Shown: piece after piece, positions 40,167-62,307 of the stretch
Position numbering within the stretch: the first letter of the stretch is position 1
Layout of the letters: every line of letters begins with the position of its first letter
Source: Hyphomicrobiales bacterium
GTDB taxonomy: Bacteria; Pseudomonadota; Alphaproteobacteria; Rhizobiales; Beijerinckiaceae
DNA: 64,000 bases
Direction of reading: 5' to 3'
Assembly (NCBI GenBank): GCA_028290705.1
Contig: JAQGJH010000088.1
Span: 1-64,000 of the forward strand
Made by a program: the position numbers and the translations under genes
Notes under the pieces: model-generated
Databases searched by the model: none
Seen by the model: only the letters and a program-made list of their open reading frames with translations
What the model was told of the DNA's origin: nothing

Positions 40167-40191
40167 GCACGACACCCTCGTACGAAAGCAA

Positions 40192-40219
40192 AACGCCACC
40201 GGGTTTCGGTGGCGTTTTT
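40192..40219. terminator. Bidirectional terminator at the end of the flagellar cluster
   Basis: A perfect 10-bp stem (AACGCCACCG/CGGTGGCGTT) is flanked by T runs on both strands (TTTTT on plus, TTTTG on minus). It lies between two convergent transcription units. Confidence 0.9.
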
Positions 40220-40254
40220 GCGTTTCGGTCGAGATCGCGGGTCGCTGCGCGTTC

Positions 40255-40710
40255 TTACCTCCGGATATCCTCCGAAGGAATGAACGAGAATTCCGGGACG
40301 AGAATGTCCTGGATGACGTCCGCCTTGAGCCGCGCCTTCACCTCGCGCTTGATGTTCTCGCGGAACGCCAGGAGGTCGAACTTTTTAAGATCCCGAAAGT
40401 CGAGCCTCTCGTCCGAATAGATCAATCGGAAGGCCTCGTCGGTGATGAACACGTCCGGCGGCAATTCGAGCTTCTTCAACGCTTCGGCATCGGCCGTATA
40501 GGCAATCTGCACCACGACATACCCGCGGATCGCCCCGCCGGCGATGATCGGAACGTTGAGTCCCTTGATTTTGCGCATCTCGATGGACTTCGGAGTCTCG
40601 TTGATGACGCCCGCGCTCTGCTCCTGCTTCAACTTCCAGAAGGTGGCGCCGTAACTCGCGCCGAGCGCGACGGCACAAACCCACAAACCAGCGAGAAGAC
40701 GCATGATCAT
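40255..40710 (-). CDS. FliL-like hypothetical protein, last gene of the hook/export operon
   Basis: The 151-residue protein has an N-terminal membrane helix (LLAGLWVCAVALGASYGATF, about 4-24) and a soluble domain: YVVVQIAYTADAEALKKLELPPDVFITDEAFRLIYSD..FRENIKREVKARLKADVIQDILVPEFSFI. The last segment resembles the end of FliL (REVKxRL..xxVIxxILVxxF), but the bona fide fliL is at 60.1 kb, so this may be a second FliL-like motor-associated protein. It overlaps the FlgN-like gene (ATGA). The FliL resemblance is by eye and moderately sure. Confidence 0.65.
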   Translation of the reverse strand: MIMRLLAGLWVCAVALGASYGATFWKLKQEQSAGVINETPKSIEMRKIKGLNVPIIAGGAIRGYVVVQIAYTADAEALKKLELPPDVFITDEAFRLIYSDERLDFRDLKKFDLLAFRENIKREVKARLKADVIQDILVPEFSFIPSEDIRR

Positions 40711-41111
40711 CTGCGGGCATCCCGCGAGATGCGCGCCGAATAGGTGCCGTCAGACGCGGCATCCTGTATCGACGTGGCGACCAGGTTGGCGATTTCCTCA
40801 GCCGCGGTGAGATGAAGCTTGAGCACGCGCTGGTTCTCGTCCAGCAGATCGCGCAGCCGGCCGAGGCGCGCCGCGAGGATCGGCGTGCGTTCATGCGCGG
40901 GCAGCACGCGCATGGCGCGCGTCAGCTCCAGCAGGCTGAAATTCTTCTGATGATTGAGTCGCTCGAAGTCCGCGCTCCCGAGCTGCCTCAGGAGCTGCGT
41001 CTCCTCCTCGACGACCTGCGACAATCGCTCGACCGCATTGATGACGGCGGTTCCCCCGCCACCTGCACCCAAGGCCTCCTGCCGCTGCTCGCCTACGATC
41101 TGAAAGCCCAC
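40707..41111 (-). CDS. FlgN-like flagellar export chaperone candidate
   Basis: The 134-residue protein is helical with coiled-coil heptads: VERLSQVVEEETQLLRQLGSADFERLNHQKNFSLLELTRAM, then LGRLRDLLDENQRVLKLHLTAAEEIANLVATSI. This pattern and the position right after the rod-binding protein fit FlgN, the chaperone for FlgK/FlgL, though similarity is low. The start is GTG with AAGGGT upstream, 3 bases after the FlgJ gene. Alternative: an unrelated flagellar coiled-coil protein. Confidence 0.65.
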   Translation of the reverse strand: MGFQIVGEQRQEALGAGGGGTAVINAVERLSQVVEEETQLLRQLGSADFERLNHQKNFSLLELTRAMRVLPAHERTPILAARLGRLRDLLDENQRVLKLHLTAAEEIANLVATSIQDAASDGTYSARISRDARR

Positions 41112-41114
41112 GTC

Positions 41115-41558
41115 TCAACCCTTTCCGAGCACGGTGTCGCGCAAAATGCCGAGGCCCTTGCCCTTGGTCAGTTCGGCCGCCAGCTTGTCGGCCAGCATGG
41201 ATCGCCAGACTCCGCCGGCATTGTCCTTGCCGAAGAACTGTCCGCCGTCTTTCGGCAGCATGGTTTCGACCATCATCTTGGCCATCATGGTTTCGAGGCC
41301 GCGTTTGGCTTCGTCCATGCCACCCTGACCCGAAACTGCGGCGCCGGTCGGCGCGCTGAAGAAGCGCGCTTCCGCCTCGGGAGACCAGCGGCCGCTGAAT
41401 GGCCGGAGCGAAGGAGCCTGCGCACTCAGCACATCCCTGAAGGATCCGAGCGACGCGTCACCGAAGTCCAGCAGCTTCTGCTTCGCGGCCTGCGCGCGTG
41501 CGGGATCGGCCGCCATGGCGACTTCGAGAACGATATCGGTGACGGGCTTGATGGACAA
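41115..41558 (-). CDS. flgJ: Rod-binding protein (FlgJ N-terminal domain only)
   Basis: The 147-residue protein has the FlgJ rod-binding signature in GMDEAKRGLETMMAKMMVETMLPKDGGQFFGKDNAGGVWRSMLADKLAAELTKGKGLGILRD. The muramidase domain found in gammaproteobacterial FlgJ is absent, as is usual in alphaproteobacteria. It would help polymerise the rod in the periplasm. The separate lytic transglycosylase at 51.1 kb may supply the hydrolase. Confidence 0.88.
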   Translation of the reverse strand: MSIKPVTDIVLEVAMAADPARAQAAKQKLLDFGDASLGSFRDVLSAQAPSLRPFSGRWSPEAEARFFSAPTGAAVSGQGGMDEAKRGLETMMAKMMVETMLPKDGGQFFGKDNAGGVWRSMLADKLAAELTKGKGLGILRDTVLGKG

Positions 41559-41606: not shown

Positions 41607-42002
41607 TTACTTCAGGCTTGTGACACGGGCCCATTCGACGTCGAGCAGGTCCTCCAGCATCTTCTTCTCCTCGTGGCGGCGATCGTCGCGCTGCACCGCG
41701 ACATGCAGACGCTCGATGCAAACGGCGCGCGCCGCCGTCTCCTTGTATCTCGCCTCGCAAGCTGACTGCTCCGTCATGGCGCGCTGCTGGGCGATGAGGA
41801 TTTTCCGCAGCACGGCGCCGCCGGTACGCGCCAATGCGAAACCCGGGGCATCGTCGCGGCTCATCGCCTCGATCATCTGCAACTCGTCCTGCGCCAGCCG
41901 CTGACGTTCGGCATTGGCGCGGCCGAGCCGCATTTCGGCATCTTTTCGAAGTTGCTGCTGCACCTGCAGGATGCGTTCGACGTTGGCCAGCCGCTTTCCC
42001 AT
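41607..42002 (-). CDS. FliJ-like coiled-coil protein
   Basis: The 131-residue protein is helical throughout: RLANVERILQVQQQLRKDAEMRLGRANAERQRLAQDELQMIEAMS, and a second helix CEARYKETAARAVCIERLHVAVQRDDRRHEEKKMLEDLLDVEWARVTS. Length and coiled-coil architecture fit FliJ, the stalk of the export ATPase, but identity is not certain. Its ATG overlaps the fliR stop (TGATG). Confidence 0.65.
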   Translation of the reverse strand: MGKRLANVERILQVQQQLRKDAEMRLGRANAERQRLAQDELQMIEAMSRDDAPGFALARTGGAVLRKILIAQQRAMTEQSACEARYKETAARAVCIERLHVAVQRDDRRHEEKKMLEDLLDVEWARVTSLK

Positions 42003-42754
42003 CAACGCACCACGAATTGCTGGAAGCCGATGAGAAAGCCCTGGAACAGCGGCTTGCCGAGCGTCATGAGAAGCAGCAACCCGCCCGCGATGAGGAAGGG
42101 CATGGAGGCGAAGTAAACTTGAATCGTCGGAGTCATCTTGTTCGCGAGACCAAAGGCAAAGTTGAGCGCCAGGGAGAGAACCAGGAACGGGCTGCTGATC
42201 CGCAGCGCCAGCAGGGAAGCTTCCGTCAGCGCGTCGGCCACTTCCGTCAGGCTGAAGCGAGCGGGAAGACCGCTGCCGGGCGGCAGGGCATCGTAAGACA
42301 GGAACAATCCTCGCAAAACTTCGAGATGAAGATCCGCGAGGAAGAAAAGCAGCACCGCGCTGAGCGTGATGAGCGTCACGATCGGCGGCGCGGCCTCGCT
42401 CTCCTCCATTGGCATGCCGGCAATGCCCGCGAGCCCGATCGACGTCGCGATCGCCGACGCCATCATCTCGAGCATCAGGAAGAAGAGGCGGGCCAGCAGG
42501 CCGATCATCAGGCCGATGAGCAGTTCGGTGACGATCACCCGGATCAGCGCCGAAAGGGCGGCGGGCTTCATCAAGTCGGCGAATCGCTCATTGAGCAGCG
42601 GCAGGAATGCCAGGCTGAGTGCGATCGCGATGAACAGGCGGGCCCGAACCGGGACGCGCTGGCTCGACAGGCCCGGCATGATCATCAGGCACGCGCCGAC
42701 GCGGCAGAAGACCACGAAGGCGGAGAGGACCGCGGCCGTCAGCGCCTCGTTCAT
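42002..42754 (-). CDS. fliR: Flagellar export gate protein FliR
   Basis: The 250-residue membrane protein has about six helices and conserved text: [89 protein letters not shown]. With FliP and FliQ it forms the export gate. It overlaps flhA by 4 bases (ATGA). In the same operon as fliQ and flhA, as in other rhizobia. Confidence 0.96.
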
Positions 42755-44844
42755 GGAGCGATGGCGCCCAGCGGCTTGATCTCGACACCGCGCGCGATCT
42801 CGAGATGCGACAGAACGGGCAGCTTGGCGAACATGCGCTCGACGATCATCCGCACATAGGGACGGGCTTCCGGCGTCGTGATCAACGCGAACTGATGTCC
42901 CTCGTCGATATAGCGTCGGATCGCGACCGAAGCATCGGCGGCGAACTCATCCATCATCTTGGGGTCGAAATCGAGCTCGATCACTTCGCCCTTCTGATCC
43001 CGCTTGAGCGCCTTGTGGAAGGCCAGGTCCCAGCGATTGCCCAGGCGCAGCAGTTTGAGAACGCCGTCCTCCATCAGGTCGCCACAGATCTGCTGCGACA
43101 TGCGCAGGCGAACGTGCTCGGCGACCTGCTCGGCCCGGCGCGCATGCGGCGCAATTTCGGCGACGGCTTCGAGGATCAGGTGCAGGTTGCGGATGGACAC
43201 ACGTTCCGCCAGCAGCAGCTTCAGCACCGATTGCAGGCCCGAATAGGTGATCTGCGCCGGGCAAATGTCTTCGATGAGCTTCTTGTACTCCGGATCGAGC
43301 CTGTCGAGCAGGCCGCGCATGTCCTTGTAGGACAGGAGCTGAGCGAGATTGTTCCGAATGACCTCGCTGAGATGGGTCAGCACCGTGGAGCTGTTGTCGA
43401 TGGCTTTGAAGCCCTCGCGCTTCAGTTCCGACTTGAAGGTTTCCGCCACCCAAACGGCCTTCATGCCGAAAGCAGGGTCGAAGCCTTCGTCATAAGGCAG
43501 GTCGGGCTTCGCCCCCTCCCCTGTCACGACCAGAAGATCGCCGATGCGAATGTCGGCCGCCGCCACGACGGTTCCGTGGATCTTGATCTGGTATGACTTC
43601 GGCCCGATCGTGAGGCTGTCCGAGACCTTGATTTCCGGAACGACGAAACCGTACAGCATCGCGAACTTGCGCCGCATCTTCGAGACACGATGGGCCAGCT
43701 CTCCATGCGCCATGAGCATGCGGGGCGCGAGCTGCTTGCCGAGAACGAGCTCGATCTCGACCGTGCGCAGGCTTTCCTTGACGGATTCCTGCGCCTCCAC
43801 GACCTTCGCGGCGTCAGCCTTGCGCTCGCGCTCGGCATCGCGCGCGATGACTTCGGCGCGCCGCTTCGGAATGATGTGCGCCAAAAATCCCATCGACGCG
43901 CCCAGCACGGCAAAAGGCATAAACGGCAGCCCAGGCATGACGGCGAGCAAAGCCATCAGCATGGAGGCGACGAACAGAGCCGGTGGATAGTTGCTGAGCT
44001 GGCCGAACACCGCCTTTTCGGCGGACCCGCGCGTACCGCCCTTCGAGACGAGCAGGCCGGCAGCCAGCGACACGATCAGTGCCGGGATCTGCGAGACGAG
44101 TCCGTCGCCGACCGAGAGCTTGATGAAGACGTCCGCGGCGCTCGACAGCGACATCCCGTGACGCGTGACGCCGATCACGATGCCGCCGAAAATATTCACC
44201 GCCAGAATGATGATGCCCGCGATCGCATCGCCGCGCACGAACTTCGATGCGCCGTCCATGGAGCCGAAGAAGGCGCTTTCCTCTTCGAGTTCGCGCCGGC
44301 GATTCTGCGCCTCCTTGTCGTCGATCAGACCCGCGGAAAGATCCGCGTCGATCGCCATCTGCTTGCCCGGAATGGCATCGAGCGTGAAGCGGGCGCCAAC
44401 CTCAGCGATACGCGTCGCGCCCTTGGTGATGACCAGGAAGTTGACCGTGATGAGGATGAAGAAGACGATCAGTCCGATGACGAAATCGCCGCTCATCACG
44501 AGATTGGCGAAGCCGCTGATGATGTATCCGGCGGCGGTCGTGCCCTCGGACCCGTGCGACAGGATCAGACGCGTCGTCGCGATGTTGAGCGACAGCCGCA
44601 GCATGGTCGCCACGAGCAGAATGGTTGGAAAAGCCGAGAACTCGAGCGGTCGCTGGATCCACAGCGCAACCATCAAGATCAAAACGGAGAGCGCGATCGA
44701 CAGCGCGAGACCGAGATCGATCAAAATCGCGGGGATCGGCAGAAAGAAGATCGACAGGATCGCGACGATGCCGCCCGCGAACCAGATGTCGCGAAATCCT
44801 GCGGCACGCTTGTCGGCAGCCTTGATGAGGGCCAGGTCGGTCAT
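42751..44844 (-). CDS. flhA: Flagellar export gate protein FlhA
   Basis: The 697-residue protein has an N-terminal membrane half with eight helices ([47 protein letters not shown]...) and the FHIPEP-type core [24 protein letters not shown]-like GVTRHGMSL. The C-terminal cytoplasmic domain (about 360-697) contains [20 protein letters not shown] and [32 protein letters not shown]. It forms the nonameric ring that receives substrates and chaperones. The ATG follows GGAGG; the ORF track extends 24 codons. Confidence 0.97.
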
Positions 44845-51691: not shown

Positions 51692-53045
51692 ACTCGGACT
51701 TTCCTGAAGCTCTCTCGTGACCGCGTTGACCGCGCGAGCGATCCTCGGCATGGGACGATGCGTCCTGTTGCTGGGCCGACGCGGAATTGTTGGATGTGCC
51801 GTTTTGACTGGACTGGCCGGATTGCTGCTGGGCGTTCTGACCGTTCTGCGATAATCCGCCTGCATCCGCTGCCGACGCGGCGCGGATGGTCAAACCGTCG
51901 AGCTGGCAATTCTCGCCTTGAAGGCTTCGATGCAGCACGTCCTGGCTGCGCTTGATCATGTCGAGCGTCTCGGGCTTCGCCACTTCGATCTGGATGGTCA
52001 GTGCGCCGCCCGAGAGTTTCATCTTCACATTGACGACGCCGAGGGCTTCCGGCTCGAGCTGGATGTCCATGGTTTTGGACACGTCATGCGTGGCGGGCTT
52101 GTGCATCTCGGCGGCGACGGGCGCGGTCGCGGCCTGAACCTCGCGTACGACCTGACCGGCAATCTGTCGCATCGGTTCGTTGACGACAGGATAGTGAGTC
52201 GTCGTGTTGACGTTGCGCACCGCGACGCTGCGCGTCTCTTCGACCGCCTCGTCGTCGCCGGTCTTCGAAAGCATCTGTCGGGCGAAGCCATCGAGCGGCT
52301 TGCCGCCTTCCTCCGCCATGGCAGGGTCCGTCGTCCCAGTCGCGAGCGCCGCATTGCCGGCCGCCTGGCCATCGTCCGGCATGGCGACAGGTGTTTGAGT
52401 CGCGGCGGTCCCCTGGATCGACATGCCCTTTGTGGCTGACCCGTCTCGACCTTGCGGCGGCTCGCCCTTGGCCGAAGGCGCGTCCTTGCGGACGCCACTT
52501 TGTCCGGACTGTCCGGGAGCAGCCAACAAAGCCGCAACGGCGGCCTCGGCCGCCTGCGACGGCAATGCGGTCGTGTCCACCGGCACGTCGCTGGGCGGCG
52601 TGACGTCCACCGACGGCAGACCAAGTTCGCCGCCAGCTTCAAGACCGGGCATTTCAGATTTTGCCGCAGCAACCCCGACACTTTCTGCCGAAGTCTCGAC
52701 GTTCCGCGGCGGCAGCACGATCTTGCCGGTCTCACCTGACAGGACCTGCGCCAGAAGCGCCTGCCAGCCAGCCTCGGCTGCAGGCAAAGAGGCGCCGCCA
52801 TCCGCCGCCACGTTGGCCGCATCGATGGGCGCGTCGAGCTTGAAGCCGGGATTGAGTTGCGACGGATGCCGCAAAACCGTCGGCTCTTGCGGCCCGCTCT
52901 TGGAGGGAATCGCCGGGGCGGCCTGCTCTTCGAGAACGCTGCCGAAAGCCTCAGCCGCGGAGCCGTCGGACTGGCCGGCATCGGCGCGCTGCTGCGGAAC
53001 GTTGCGCGGCGGCGGCGCCGTCACGACTGCGAGCTTGGGTCCCAT
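51633..53045 (-). CDS. fliK: Flagellar hook-length control protein FliK
   Basis: The 470-residue protein has a low-complexity Pro/Ala/Gln-rich N-terminal region and a conserved C-terminal domain: MDIQLEPEALGVVNVKMKLSGGALTIQIEVAKPETLDMIKRSQDVLHRSLQGENCQLDGLTI, the FliK hook-length domain (MotD in older rhizobial naming). The tail is Gln/Ser-rich and basic. It is exported and switches substrate specificity when the hook is complete. It starts at TGATG overlap with motC; the track's upstream extension was trimmed. Confidence 0.92.
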   Translation of the reverse strand: MGPKLAVVTAPPPRNVPQQRADAGQSDGSAAEAFGSVLEEQAAPAIPSKSGPQEPTVLRHPSQLNPGFKLDAPIDAANVAADGGASLPAAEAGWQALLAQVLSGETGKIVLPPRNVETSAESVGVAAAKSEMPGLEAGGELGLPSVDVTPPSDVPVDTTALPSQAAEAAVAALLAAPGQSGQSGVRKDAPSAKGEPPQGRDGSATKGMSIQGTAATQTPVAMPDDGQAAGNAALATGTTDPAMAEEGGKPLDGFARQMLSKTGDDEAVEETRSVAVRNVNTTTHYPVVNEPMRQIAGQVVREVQAATAPVAAEMHKPATHDVSKTMDIQLEPEALGVVNVKMKLSGGALTIQIEVAKPETLDMIKRSQDVLHRSLQGENCQLDGLTIRAASAADAGGLSQNGQNAQQQSGQSSQNGTSNNSASAQQQDASSHAEDRSRGQRGHERASGKSEYDETVTPRDRASVASGIYL

Positions 53046-54220
53046 CAGCGTCGTTTCCTCACGAGTAACTCGTTGGTTGCAACCATCAACCGCTCGGCAT
53101 CGGCCAGCAGCGCCGCGGATTTGTCGCGGCTCGGGTCCGGCGCAACTTCGGGAGCTTGCGCCTCGGGCCATGTGCGAACCATGCGGGCCATTTTCAGCGC
53201 GGCCTGGTGCAGCACCGAATCGGCGCGCGACAATCTCGACGGATCGAGCTTCTCCAGCGCCATCAGATCCGCGTCGGCGTTGGGGTCGCCGGCCTTGGCG
53301 GCCGCACGATACAGACGGGCGCGCACGACGTCGCACCCTGGATCGACCGGCGGACGCATGACCAGTTCAGAGAAGGACACGGCCGATTGCATCGCGCCCT
53401 GCAACAGAGTCGTGCGCGCGATGATGATCGCCAGGCGGCATCGTTCGTCCCTGTCGAACGTGGCGAGCACCGGCTCCAGCGAATTGGCATGATCGACGTT
53501 CGGATTTGCGCCGATCTTCACCAGCGAATTCGCAAACGTGGTCCGAAACTCTTCGGCATAAAGCGATTGCTTGAAGCGGCGTGCATATTGCCGGGCCAAA
53601 ATCGCGAATCTTTCGGCATCGGCCGTCTCGCCGACGAGCGAGATCTGCCGGCGGAGAGCCGTTTCCTCGACGAGCGTCCCGGGCGCGAGCAGCCGGGCGA
53701 TGCCCAGAAGCTCGATCGATTTCTCGCGGTCTTCGGCGAGCACCAGCGCCGCCTGCACGAGTGCGAGCTGCCCCCCGAGCGAGGGATCCGCGTGGCGAGC
53801 ATCGATCGGCAGCAACATCTCGCGCGCCTGCGCGGCGCGCCCCTCGGCAAACGCCAAAGCGCCCCGCGCGAGGCTGAGTTCCGATGCCGCAAAGGCGCCG
53901 CCGCGTGCAATCTGGCGAAGCACCCTCGGAGATCCACCGCTCAACGTCAGCAATGCCGCCGCGCGCGCATTGCGCGGTTCGCGCCAGACCTCAGCCGGCG
54001 CTTCGATGAACTGCCGGCCGATTTGCGCGATCAGTCGCGGCTGCTCCTCACGCGCGGCCGATTTGCCCGCGGCGATCTGGTTCTGCACCTCCTGCAGCGC
54101 GCGGATGAGCAGATAGGGCGCAGGCGACTCCGCCCGCGCCGTGGAGACGCCGAGCGACGCCACGATCGAAACAGGCGCACACGTCAGCGCCAGAACGGCT
54201 GCCAGGACCTTGAGCCTCAT
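53045..54220 (-). CDS. motC: Motor protein MotC (periplasmic)
   Basis: The 391-residue protein has a signal peptide (KVLAAVLALTCAPVSIVASLG), then helical repeats: SPAPYLLIRALQEVQNQIAAGKSAAREEQPRLIAQIGRQFIEAPAEVWREPRNARAA, which match rhizobial MotC. MotC binds MotB in the periplasm and is needed for motor rotation in Sinorhizobium. It lies between motB (4-base overlap) and fliK. Confidence 0.93.
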   Translation of the reverse strand: MRLKVLAAVLALTCAPVSIVASLGVSTARAESPAPYLLIRALQEVQNQIAAGKSAAREEQPRLIAQIGRQFIEAPAEVWREPRNARAAALLTLSGGSPRVLRQIARGGAFAASELSLARGALAFAEGRAAQAREMLLPIDARHADPSLGGQLALVQAALVLAEDREKSIELLGIARLLAPGTLVEETALRRQISLVGETADAERFAILARQYARRFKQSLYAEEFRTTFANSLVKIGANPNVDHANSLEPVLATFDRDERCRLAIIIARTTLLQGAMQSAVSFSELVMRPPVDPGCDVVRARLYRAAAKAGDPNADADLMALEKLDPSRLSRADSVLHQAALKMARMVRTWPEAQAPEVAPDPSRDKSAALLADAERLMVATNELLVRKRR

Positions 54221-55479
54221 TTCGCCTTCCGGAGCAGAATTTCGATGCGGCGATTTTCAGCGGCGTTCGGATCCTTGGGCACGCGCAGGGCGCGGTCGGC
54301 ATGCCCTTCGATCCGCTCGATCCGTTTTTCATCCAGGGTGCCGCGCACCAGCATGTAGGCGGCCATCTGCGCCCGTGCGGCCGACAGCCTCCAGTTGTCA
54401 TAGGCGCGCGTCCGGAACGGCCGACCGTCCGTATGGCCGCGAATGATGAACGTGCCGGGGCGGGCCGTGAGGAGCTGGCCGATCTTTTCCATGGCGCGAA
54501 CGACGGCTGCCTGCGGCTCCGCCGAGCCTACGGCAAACATCCCGAAGTTCAGGTCGTCCGTGAGGCTGATGAGAATCCCCTCGTCGACGGCACGGACATC
54601 GAGCCCCGGACCCTGGTCGAGACCGGCGGACGACAGCGCCTCGGCGATCTGCTTTTTGAGCACGCCTGCCTCAGCCGCCGCCTGCTTGCCTTGCGCATTG
54701 GCTTCGGCCGGCTTGTCGAGCACGACGGCCTCGGTCGGGGCAGGCTTGGCGCCGGGCTTCGCAGCCTCCGGATGAAGCTCCGCGGCATTGTCGATGGACT
54801 TGGCTTCGGCGACGGGCTTGGCGCCCGTCTTCGTGTCACGACGAGCGGCCGGCGGTGGCGAGGTCGGCCCCGCGAGCCCGACGACGGGCTTCGCCTCGGG
54901 CGGGACGACGGGCGATGGCGGCGCGAACGGATCGCGGAACGGCACGGGTCCGTCGCCGAGTTGATCGACTTCGGCCGACAGCGCCAGGCCGTCCGCCGCG
55001 GATGCGCCACGAGAGGTGCCGGCGATCTCGTCCAGCACCACGAAGGGGTCGCGGGTGGCGACGGGATCGAACCAGCCATGCGTCGCGGATGCCTGCTCGG
55101 CGGGCGGCTCGTCTGTCGAGACGCGACCGCCATTGGCCGCACCCGGTCCGCTCTTTCCGTCGACGTTGTTCAGCGTGCCCGATTTCGGCTTCGCCTTTTC
55201 GTCGGCGGCGGACGCGTCGAAATCAGCCTCCTTGGGGTCCTTCAGGCCCTTGCGCGCAGGCGTCGTGTCCGAAATGCGGATGGGATTGAAATAACGCGCG
55301 ACCGACGAGCGCGTTTCCTTGTTGGTCGAATTGACGATCCAGAGCACCAGAAAGAAGGCGAACATGGCGGTCATGAAGTCGGCGAACGCGACTTTCCACG
55401 CGCCGCCATGCGGATGATCCTCATGCGGGTGGCCCCGCTTGATGATGATCATCTCCATGTCCGACTTTTCGAGGCTCAT
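54217..55479 (-). CDS. motB: Flagellar stator protein MotB
   Basis: The 420-residue protein has a single membrane helix (GGAWKVAFADFMTAMFAFFLVLWIVN, about 25-50) with the proton-binding Asp at about residue 34. A Pro/Ala-rich periplasmic segment follows, then an OmpA-like peptidoglycan-binding domain (FIIRGHTDGRPFRTRAYDNWRLSAARAQMAAYMLVRGTLDEKRI..GHADRALRVPKDPNAAENRRIEILL). The partner MotA is not in this window. It overlaps motC by 4 bases; 5 bases separate it from fliH. Confidence 0.96.
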   Translation of the reverse strand: MSLEKSDMEMIIIKRGHPHEDHPHGGAWKVAFADFMTAMFAFFLVLWIVNSTNKETRSSVARYFNPIRISDTTPARKGLKDPKEADFDASAADEKAKPKSGTLNNVDGKSGPGAANGGRVSTDEPPAEQASATHGWFDPVATRDPFVVLDEIAGTSRGASAADGLALSAEVDQLGDGPVPFRDPFAPPSPVVPPEAKPVVGLAGPTSPPPAARRDTKTGAKPVAEAKSIDNAAELHPEAAKPGAKPAPTEAVVLDKPAEANAQGKQAAAEAGVLKKQIAEALSSAGLDQGPGLDVRAVDEGILISLTDDLNFGMFAVGSAEPQAAVVRAMEKIGQLLTARPGTFIIRGHTDGRPFRTRAYDNWRLSAARAQMAAYMLVRGTLDEKRIERIEGHADRALRVPKDPNAAENRRIEILLRKAK

Positions 55480-59345: not shown

Positions 59346-60089
59346 TCAGCCGTAGGATCTGATCAGGCTGCCGATCACCATGTTCCACCCGTCGATGAGA
59401 ACGAAGAACAGCACTTTCAATGGAAGTGCGATCACCGATGGTGGAAGCATCATCATGCCCATCGACATGGTCAACGTCGAAACGATCATGTCGATGACGA
59501 GAAACGGCAGCACGATCAGGAAGCCGATTTCGAAGCCGCGTCGCAGTTCGGAAATCATGAACGCGGGAATCAGCACGCGCAGGTCCGTGGAGGCGCGGTC
59601 AGCAGATCGAAGATCCGTGCGAGCCAGTTCCTCGAACATGGCGAGATCCTTGTCTCTCACCTGCGTCAGCATGAAGTCACGAAACGGAGCCACGATGCGC
59701 CCGTAGGCTTCCTGCTCGGTGATCTCGTTGTCGAGCAGAGGGCGAAGCCCGTCGTTCCAGGATTTCTCGAACACCGGCGACATGACGAAAAACGTCATGA
59801 ACAGCGCCAGGCTGACGAGCACCAGATTTGCGGGCGTGCTCTGCAGGCCGATGCCCGACCGCAGGAAGGAAAGCGCGACGGCGAAACGCGTGAAACTCGT
59901 CACCATGACCATCAGGCCGGGGGCCAGCGACAGCACGGTGATGACCGCCGCAAGCTGAACGATGCGGCCCGTGACGGTGCCGCTCCCCTGCGGCAGCAAG
60001 GCATTCAGATCGAGTGTCTGAGCCAGAGCGGACCCGTTCAGCGCGAACAGGAGCCCGAGCCCGGCCGCGAGCGCAAGCTTCGACCTCAT
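59346..60089 (-). CDS. fliP: Flagellar export gate protein FliP
   Basis: The 247-residue membrane protein has a signal-like N terminus (LALAAGLGLLFALNGSALAQ) and four conserved helices: LAAVITVLSLAPGLMVMVTSFTRFAVALSFLRSGIG, LVLVSLALFMTFFVMSPVFEKSWND, and PAFMISELRRGFEIGFLIVLPFLVIDMIVSTLTMSMGMMMLPPSVIALPLKVLFFVLIDGW. With FliQ and FliR it forms the gate. Overlaps fliL by 4 bases. Confidence 0.97.
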   Translation of the reverse strand: MRSKLALAAGLGLLFALNGSALAQTLDLNALLPQGSGTVTGRIVQLAAVITVLSLAPGLMVMVTSFTRFAVALSFLRSGIGLQSTPANLVLVSLALFMTFFVMSPVFEKSWNDGLRPLLDNEITEQEAYGRIVAPFRDFMLTQVRDKDLAMFEELARTDLRSADRASTDLRVLIPAFMISELRRGFEIGFLIVLPFLVIDMIVSTLTMSMGMMMLPPSVIALPLKVLFFVLIDGWNMVIGSLIRSYG

Positions 60090-60616
60090 TGCACCACCAG
60101 CGTCTGAATGACGAGATCCTTCACCTTGCCATCCGATCTGAGCGCGACGCGATCCTTCATGTCCTGCCGCAGATAGGCGAGCCCTTCAGGCCCCTGGATT
60201 TCCCGCAGCGAGACGCTGCGCAGAAACGCCAGCAGATCGTTCGAAATCTCTCCGGCCAGAACGCTGACATTGGCGATGTCGGCCTGGTCGTAGACGATCG
60301 ACGCCTCGAGCCTGATCCAGGATTCGGGCGGCATGGCCACGTTGGTGAGCACGTGCGGAAGATCCTTGACGACGATTTTGGAGGGAAGCTTCGCCGGCTC
60401 CGCACCTGCCGCTGGAGCGGGCGGAGGAGCCGGAGCTGCAGGCGCCGCCGGAGCCGCTGGCTTCGCACCTTCAGGTGAAACTGGAACATGAACCGCTTTG
60501 AAGACCTGCAGGCCATGCGCAGCGCCGGCTCCGCCCGCGAGCAGCGTCAGCAGAATGATGCTGACGAGCCCTCCCGCTGACTTCTTGCCGCCGTCTTCGC
60601 CCTTCTTGGACGCCAT
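60086..60616 (-). CDS. fliL: Flagellar basal-body-associated protein FliL
   Basis: The 176-residue protein has a short cytoplasmic tail (MASKKGEDGGKKSAGG), a membrane helix (LVSIILLTLLAGGAGAAHGLQVF) and a Pro/Ala linker, then the FliL domain: KIVVKDLPHVLTNVAMPPESWIRLEASIVYDQADIANVSVLAGEISNDLLAFLRSVSLREIQGPEGLAYLRQDMKDRVALRSDGKVKDLVIQTLVVQ. It surrounds MotB in the stator. Overlaps fliP (ATGA). Confidence 0.95.
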   Translation of the reverse strand: MASKKGEDGGKKSAGGLVSIILLTLLAGGAGAAHGLQVFKAVHVPVSPEGAKPAAPAAPAAPAPPPAPAAGAEPAKLPSKIVVKDLPHVLTNVAMPPESWIRLEASIVYDQADIANVSVLAGEISNDLLAFLRSVSLREIQGPEGLAYLRQDMKDRVALRSDGKVKDLVIQTLVVQ

Positions 60617-60628
60617 GCCTTCACCCCG

Positions 60629-61324
60629 TCAGAACGGCTTGATGATGTCGTAGATCTGATGCCCGTAGGCCGGCTGCTGCACTTCGCTGACGCGGCCACG
60701 GCCGCCATAGGAAATGCGCGCTTCCGCGATCTTCTCGTATGAGATGAGATTGTCTCGCGAAATGTCGCGCGGCCGGACGACACCAGCGATATTCAGCAGG
60801 CGCAGTTCATAATTCACGCGAACCTCCTGCGATCCGCTGATCAGCAGGTTGCCGTTGGGCATGACGTCCGTGACCACGGCGGCGATCGAAAGCTGGATCT
60901 TTTCGGCACGGTCGATATTGCCCTTGCCGGCCGCCGAGGATTTCGAATCGATGTTCAGGCTTCCATCGGCCGCATAGCCCGGGCCGAGAGACGTTCCGGC
61001 CGAAAAGCCTGTCGACGCCTTGGCTTCCTGCGAGCGATCCGTGCTGTTGCCCATGGTGGCGCGATCGTTGATCGCAATGCTCACAGTGATCACGTCGCCG
61101 ACTTTGGAGGCGCGCGGATCGCGGAACAGATCCCCGCGCGAATCGTCCCACAGCGACACCATGCCGTTGCGAATGCCGGGCGTCGGCGCAGAGCCCGGAA
61201 AGTTCTGCACGGGTGCGTAGAGACCGCTGCCGATCGGCGTCATCGCGGGCTCGCGCCCGGCTTCGCTCAATCGGGCGCAGCCGGTCACCATCACGGCCAG
61301 ACTGAGAACTGCTACGACCTTCAT
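60629..61324 (-). CDS. flgH: L-ring protein FlgH (lipoprotein)
   Basis: The 231-residue outer-membrane lipoprotein has a lipobox MKVVAVLSLAVMVTGCARLS. Ring core: SLWDDSRGDLFRDPRASKVGDVITVSIAINDRATMGN, NGNLLISGSQEVRVNYELRLLNIAGVVRPRDISRDNLISYEKIAEARISYGGRG. It forms the L ring with FlgI. Overlaps motE by 4 bases. Confidence 0.97.
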   Translation of the reverse strand: MKVVAVLSLAVMVTGCARLSEAGREPAMTPIGSGLYAPVQNFPGSAPTPGIRNGMVSLWDDSRGDLFRDPRASKVGDVITVSIAINDRATMGNSTDRSQEAKASTGFSAGTSLGPGYAADGSLNIDSKSSAAGKGNIDRAEKIQLSIAAVVTDVMPNGNLLISGSQEVRVNYELRLLNIAGVVRPRDISRDNLISYEKIAEARISYGGRGRVSEVQQPAYGHQIYDIIKPF

Positions 61325-62241
61325 GGTACACTCCTGGCAACTTCACGGCGCACGCCGACACCGGCCATTTCGGCTGCGATGCGCGCGGCGCGGCCGGCTT
61401 CGATTTCGTTGAGAATGGTGCTGGCGAGACGCGGATTGAGCTTGAGCAGAATGGCAGAGGCGCCGCTCTCGTCCATCGCCGAGAACTGCGCGGCAGCGGC
61501 TTCCGGCCGCATCTTCGAATAGATCGCCACGACGGATTCTTCCGCCTTCTTCAGCGCCTCTTCGCGCTTCGCGATCCACTCCGCTGTCTCGAGCCGCTTG
61601 GCCTCCAGCTCGGCGATCCGGTCGCGCATCCGCGCTTCCATCTCGACGATCTGCTTCGCCTGCCAGGCCAGACGGCCTTCCGAGGCCGCCGAACTGAAAT
61701 TGGTGCAGAAGCGCGTCACCAAGCTGGGGTCGACGGCATCGGCCGCCGGCACAGGCGCGGGCTTGATCTCCGCGGCTCTGGCCTCGGCAGCCTTGGCTTC
61801 CATGGCTTTCGGATCAGCGGCCGCAAGTTTCGAGTCGACGATCTTCGTCTCGGCTGCCTTGGGCTCCGGGGCCTTGGACGATGGCGATATCGCGCCGGGC
61901 TCCTTCAGCACGAGCTTCGGAAGATCGTCCAGAGCCGGGATCTTGCCGGCCTTTGCGGCGCGGGGCGCGACGGGCTTCTTCGCCGCCTTGCGCGGCTCCG
62001 GCTTGCGCTCGACACGCGGCTGAGCAGGCGACAGGACGCCGGCAGGCATCGTACGCGGGGCAGGTTTGATCGCGGGAGCCGGCGCGGCAGACCGGCTGCG
62101 AGCGCCGGGCGAAAGATCGAGCGGAGCCCCGGCTGAACCTTCGCCCGGCGCGGCCTGCACGGCGCCGGCGCACGCAAAGCTCACCACGAGTGAGAAAGCC
62201 AGCCCCTTGCAACCCGCATATCTCGAACGCCTGGACGTCAT
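61321..62241 (-). CDS. motE: MotE (MgtE N-terminal domain-like flagellar protein)
   Basis: The 306-residue exported protein has a signal peptide (GLAFSLVVSFACAGAVQA) and a long Ala/Lys/Pro-rich disordered region (about 30-190). The C terminus is helical and MgtE-N-like: ERIAELEAKRLETAEWIAKREEALKKAEESVVAIYSKMRPEAAAAQFSAMDESGASAILLKLNPRLASTILNEIEAGRAARIAAEM. In Sinorhizobium MotE is the periplasmic chaperone of MotC. The start was trimmed from the track. Overlaps flgH; 66 bases after flgI. Confidence 0.9.
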   Translation of the reverse strand: MTSRRSRYAGCKGLAFSLVVSFACAGAVQAAPGEGSAGAPLDLSPGARSRSAAPAPAIKPAPRTMPAGVLSPAQPRVERKPEPRKAAKKPVAPRAAKAGKIPALDDLPKLVLKEPGAISPSSKAPEPKAAETKIVDSKLAAADPKAMEAKAAEARAAEIKPAPVPAADAVDPSLVTRFCTNFSSAASEGRLAWQAKQIVEMEARMRDRIAELEAKRLETAEWIAKREEALKKAEESVVAIYSKMRPEAAAAQFSAMDESGASAILLKLNPRLASTILNEIEAGRAARIAAEMAGVGVRREVARSVP

Positions 62242-62307
62242 GTCCCATCGATCTCCGACACATTGAATCTCACCGACACCATCGGTCGGCAAGCTTGTGT
62301 CGGGCTG

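Follow-up and report, generated by a model that had tools for sequence, protein, structure and literature searches.

The gene at 40255-40710 on the minus strand of the window (the whole 64,000-nucleotide stretch of contig JAQGJH010000088.1 that was analysed) is, by sequence comparison, an orthologue of MotF, i.e., of SMc03057 of Sinorhizobium meliloti and ATU8132 of Agrobacterium fabrum. Published mutants of these orthologous genes, on which the functional side of the assignment is modelled, make it very probable that this FliL-like protein acts at the stator together with FliL and is needed for swimming. The kind of gene is already known and already bears the name motF; the assignment provides a name and a likely role for a protein that is labelled hypothetical in most of the records examined and has no name in the curated libraries.

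The motF gene, its operon and its orthologues

The open reading frame is complete and runs on the minus strand from an ATG start at 40710 to a TAA stop at 40255; the coordinates given in the original prediction proved exact. The plus-strand reading of the same interval was also translated and ruled out, the gene and its neighbours lying on the minus strand. The gene is the last one in a minus-strand run flhA-fliR-(FliJ-like)-flgJ-flgN-motF, the members of which, together with the hairpin that follows them, are listed below.

42751..44841, minus strand: flhA (PF00771, E 1.4e-233)
42002..42754, minus strand: fliR (PF01311, E 1.8e-43)
41607..42005, minus strand: FliJ-like small helical protein, so called from its position alone (the place of SMc03056/ATU0583); no family match
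41115..41558, minus strand: flgJ-like rod-binding protein (PF10135, 31.4 bits, above the cut-off), found in 31/31 loci
40707..41111, minus strand: flgN-like export chaperone gene (weak PF05130 match, E 2.1e-4, below the cut-off), adjoining motF in 31/31 loci
40255..40710, minus strand: motF orthologue, 151 aa (reading frame, family alignment, S. meliloti match, FliL profile homology)
40190..40220, minus strand: hairpin with the stem AAAACGCCACC/GGTGGCGTTTT, 3' of the motF stop (sequence and folding energy)

The placement of the gene at the end of the operon, as originally predicted, holds on both sides: the stop codon of flgN overlaps the start codon of motF in an ATGA, and the hairpin lies past the motF stop, with about 34 bases in between. 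The folding energy of the hairpin is -22.9 kcal/mol (z -5.8), and none of 200 shuffled sequences folded to an equally low value. It is likely to be an intrinsic terminator and possibly works both ways; a scan for consensus terminators listed none at this position. As to the product of 41607-42005, it is poorly conserved (a BLASTP match in 4 of 31 loci, though many of the locus sequences were truncated at this point), and ATU0583, occupying the FliJ-like position in A. fabrum, is needed for the motility of that organism.

The homologue from S. meliloti, retrieved by scanning plasmid records, aligns with the window protein over its full length with 30% identity (155 aligned columns, pairwise E 7e-27), and the gene order in the S. 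meliloti record, fliR-hypothetical-rod-binding-hypothetical-X, equals that of the window. The block SMc03056-SMc03071-SMc03072-SMc03057 of S. meliloti corresponds to ATU0583-flgJ-flgN-motF of A. fabrum, its last gene being the one named motF (PMC9812332); as far as the work of Sobe et al. is reported in PMC9812332, SMc03057/ATU8132 was described there as a paralogue of FliL. A phylogeny computed from 66 proteins places the window protein together with that of S. meliloti in one MotF clade, supported at 100/100. The gene is filed here as motF because of this match, the published block and this clade.

Several plasmid records deserve a remark of their own. CP090106.1, labelled as pSymB of S. meliloti, is 3.7 Mb long and carries a flagellar cluster of the chromosomal type; a chromosome was probably deposited here under a plasmid name. 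A MotF-like gene (locus L035, 6983-7516) on the Agrobacterium tumefaciens plasmid CP129669.1, whose product is 28% identical to the MotF of S. meliloti (pairwise E 3e-23), has no flagellar neighbours and is found near lspA, a gene for a transglutaminase-like peptidase (PF06035) and L,D-transpeptidase genes. Similar weak MotF-like matches occur on other Rhizobium and Agrobacterium plasmids.

Relationship to FliL and to a thiL/hppA-linked family

The original prediction described a short tail, one membrane helix and a periplasmic domain, and hydropathy analysis agrees with it. The sole strongly hydrophobic stretch of the protein starts within the first few residues: the best 19-residue window begins at residue 1 (Kyte-Doolittle 1.82) and there is no later peak, so that a membrane helix of approximately the first 22 residues is followed by about 125 mostly polar ones. 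This leaves a cytoplasmic tail of 0-5 residues, shorter than in most other FliL proteins examined; in the FliL of the window the hydrophobic stretch begins at residue 15. The family alignment shows VPxIxDGxVQGYVVA and DEAFR as family motifs, along with the C-terminal segment VNxRL...VxDVLVEEF. Searches with the single window protein against Pfam and NCBIfam gave no match above the chance level, searches of the PDB with the sequence and with the profile returned chance matches only, and an AlphaFold model, computed from an input of just two sequences, had a pLDDT of 38, too low for judging whether the domain has the stomatin/SPFH-like, ring-forming fold of FliL.

The similarity of the C-terminal segment to that of FliL, also claimed in the original prediction, is borne out by profiles and not by pairwise comparison, since BLASTP of the window MotF against the window FliL gave nothing at E<=100. 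The window MotF itself does not match PF03748, and 5 of 29 MotF family members touch this model at E up to 1, the best E being 0.014, below the cut-off. The MotF profile aligned with rhizobial FliL in the membrane helix alone (E 0.0084). With an alignment of 85 FliL proteins (hhalign) it aligned over 138 columns, with E 2.4e-4, a score of 31.5 and a probability of 43%; 100 column shuffles scored at most 20.5 and the reversed profile 14.3.

When the MotF profile was run against 385 genomes of the class, it picked up bridging proteins from other orders (E down to 5e-9), several of which match PF03748, one of them above the cut-off. In hhalign comparisons the profile of this bridging family matched FliL with E 5e-17 and MotF with E 1.8e-18, the latter closeness being biased, as the family was chosen with the MotF profile; shuffles of the MotF side reached E 0.009 at best. 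When the bridging profile was built without any MotF, it still found the window MotF with E 5.9e-10 and reached the canonical FliL of the other genomes of the order, with E down to 2.4e-19 and in the same register. The homology of MotF to FliL, traced through the bridging proteins, is well supported, because the bridging profile matches both of them in the same register.

The opposite view would be that MotF is an unrelated single-helix periplasmic protein whose likeness to FliL arose by convergence. The lack of a curated family match, the weakness of the direct MotF-FliL profile match and the low pLDDT of the two-sequence AlphaFold model speak for it, but it would leave unexplained a full-length bridge in one register, whose steps each have an E of roughly 1e-17 to 1e-18 (the best shuffle reaching 0.009), and the bridge members that pass the PF03748 cut-off or come near it; we consider convergence very improbable. 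Even harder to accept is a recent duplication of the fliL gene of the same cluster as the origin of MotF. The two genes do share a cluster and an architecture and co-occur strictly, yet pairwise similarity between MotF and the window FliL is absent, the MotF profile finds in rhizobial FliL nothing beyond the membrane helix (E 0.0084), and the tree groups rhizobial FliL with the other FliL proteins (100/99), leaving MotF on the other side; there is hardly any chance that this reading is right.

The bridging proteins form an unnamed family from other alphaproteobacterial orders, with one membrane helix and a FliL-like domain. In most of its loci (L093-L108, L111, L145-L150) the gene lies between nusB-thiL and either hppA, encoding an H+-pyrophosphatase, or an MFS transporter gene; flagellar neighbours were found in none of the loci read, and 10 of 12 genomes with this family have a separate canonical FliL. 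The 66-protein tree, which is built on few columns and has long branches (as the tool warned), separates MotF and the bridging family by the 100/99 branch from all FliL proteins. MotF is thus placed as a deep paralogue, whose nearest detectable relatives are members of the thiL/hppA-linked family and not the fliL of its own cluster. It is conceivable, though rather doubtful, that MotF was recruited from this non-flagellar FliL-like family and did not originate by duplication of fliL. The family itself might assist the pyrophosphatase or some other membrane protein. Its existence hints at FliL-like domains outside flagella and, if such an accessory function is true, these domains may have a more general part in membrane machines that translocate ions. 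In the literature searched, FliL together with hppA and pyrophosphatase turned up in one paper, as single passing mentions.

Distribution and the role at the motor

MotF was found in 79 of the 298 genomes of the order, belonging to 35 genera and 15 families, with one copy in each genome, and flgJ and flgN lie directly upstream of it in all 31 loci examined; chance is therefore excluded as an explanation of this gene. Although motF has been described as almost exclusive to Rhizobiaceae (PMC9812332), it is more widespread, occurring in no fewer than 15 families of the order. A confident fliL of the rhizobial type accompanies motF in 76 of the 79 genomes, on the same contig in 65 of them (median distance 23 kb) and within 40 kb in 62; among the 76 genomes with such a fliL, none lacks motF. 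MotF marks one type of motor rather than flagella generally, because some FliL is present in 215 of the 298 genomes. Its strict pairing with the rhizobial FliL suggests that this type of motor needs two different FliL-domain proteins.

The genes of the window that bear on the motor are the following.

60086..60616, minus strand: true fliL (PF03748, 38.1 bits, above the cut-off), 19.4 kb from motF
54217..55479, minus strand: motB (PF13677, PF00691)
53045..54220, minus strand: motC candidate, flanked by motB and fliK, which is the arrangement in S. meliloti; no Pfam match
61321..62292, minus strand: motE candidate, between flgI and flgH; weak PF03448 (MgtE_N) match

The true fliL was correctly expected elsewhere in the window, and it is the sole PF03748 match of the genome. 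As for the motC and motE candidates, both are barely recognised by Pfam; the position between flgI and flgH is that of motE in Rhizobiaceae (PMC10954123).

The stator role of MotF is proposed because of published mutants of its orthologues. Cells of A. fabrum with an in-frame deletion of motF lost their motility as other motility mutants do; the deletion was complemented, and among four mutants only that of motF gave rise to suppressors (PMC9812332). Suppressors of S. meliloti motF mutants map to motA (G136S and Y248H; Sobe et al., as far as reported in PMC9812332). The S. meliloti motF mutants have FlaA at the wild-type level, and its production is absent in mutants of the three genes that precede motF in the block (PMC9812332). 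FliL is reported to encircle the MotA/MotB units, probably helping to open the proton channel (PMC10954123).

The main rival explanation assigns MotF to the export/rod block, where it would assist FlgJ and FlgN as an assembly factor anchored in the membrane. It is the gene arrangement that makes this reading attractive: the linkage flgJ-flgN-motF is preserved in 31/31 loci, the codons of flgN and motF overlap, and the stator genes are some 10-15 kb away. Nevertheless, an assembly factor would hardly be expected to leave FlaA at the wild-type level in S. meliloti mutants when loss of any of the other three genes abolishes it (PMC9812332), to acquire suppressors in motA (as PMC9812332 relates from Sobe et al.), or to have the architecture of FliL and profile homology to it. 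We regard this explanation as unlikely.

The preferred reading, a FliL-like protein at the stator, could be outlined as follows. MotF would be an inner-membrane protein with one helix, exposing its FliL-like domain to the periplasm; most likely it shares with FliL a place around the stator units of MotA/MotB and should help these to reach their working, proton-conducting state. In cells devoid of it the flagellar parts would be present, and the cells would not swim. The original suggestion of a paralogous, stator-associated FliL-like protein agrees with what Sobe et al., to the extent that PMC9812332 conveys it, published on the orthologous gene. As to the fine tuning of the motor that was suggested along with it, the motility lost on deletion in A. 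fabrum points instead to a required role. A contact of MotF with MotC or MotE is a guess based on co-occurrence.

Comparison with known systems

Two different proteins go by the name motF: one is the FliL paralogue of rhizobia, the other is specific to Cereibacter. The MotF of the Fla1 system of Cereibacter (Rhodobacter) sphaeroides, which is Cereibacter-specific (PMC10954123), shares with the window protein its name and the description of a flagellar protein essential for rotation, and the two are likened by description alone. MotK of C. sphaeroides was also considered and rejected, having an AMIN-type N-terminus, consisting mainly of TPR repeats and being encoded at a different gene position. 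The thiL/hppA-linked family differs from MotF in its gene neighbours, which are thiamine-monophosphate kinase-like, H+-pyrophosphatase or transporter genes. With FliL (PF03748), MotF shares the N-terminal membrane helix, the periplasmic domain and the C-terminal segment in the same register, but it has almost no cytoplasmic tail, occupies another position in the operons and ends without the conserved V-Q of FliL. The closest counterparts are the MotF proteins of S. meliloti and A. fabrum, encoded in the same place behind fliR-X-flgJ-flgN and belonging to the same length class and architecture, although the window protein, with its 151 residues, lacks the C-terminal tail of about 37 residues present in the S. 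meliloti protein (188 aa).
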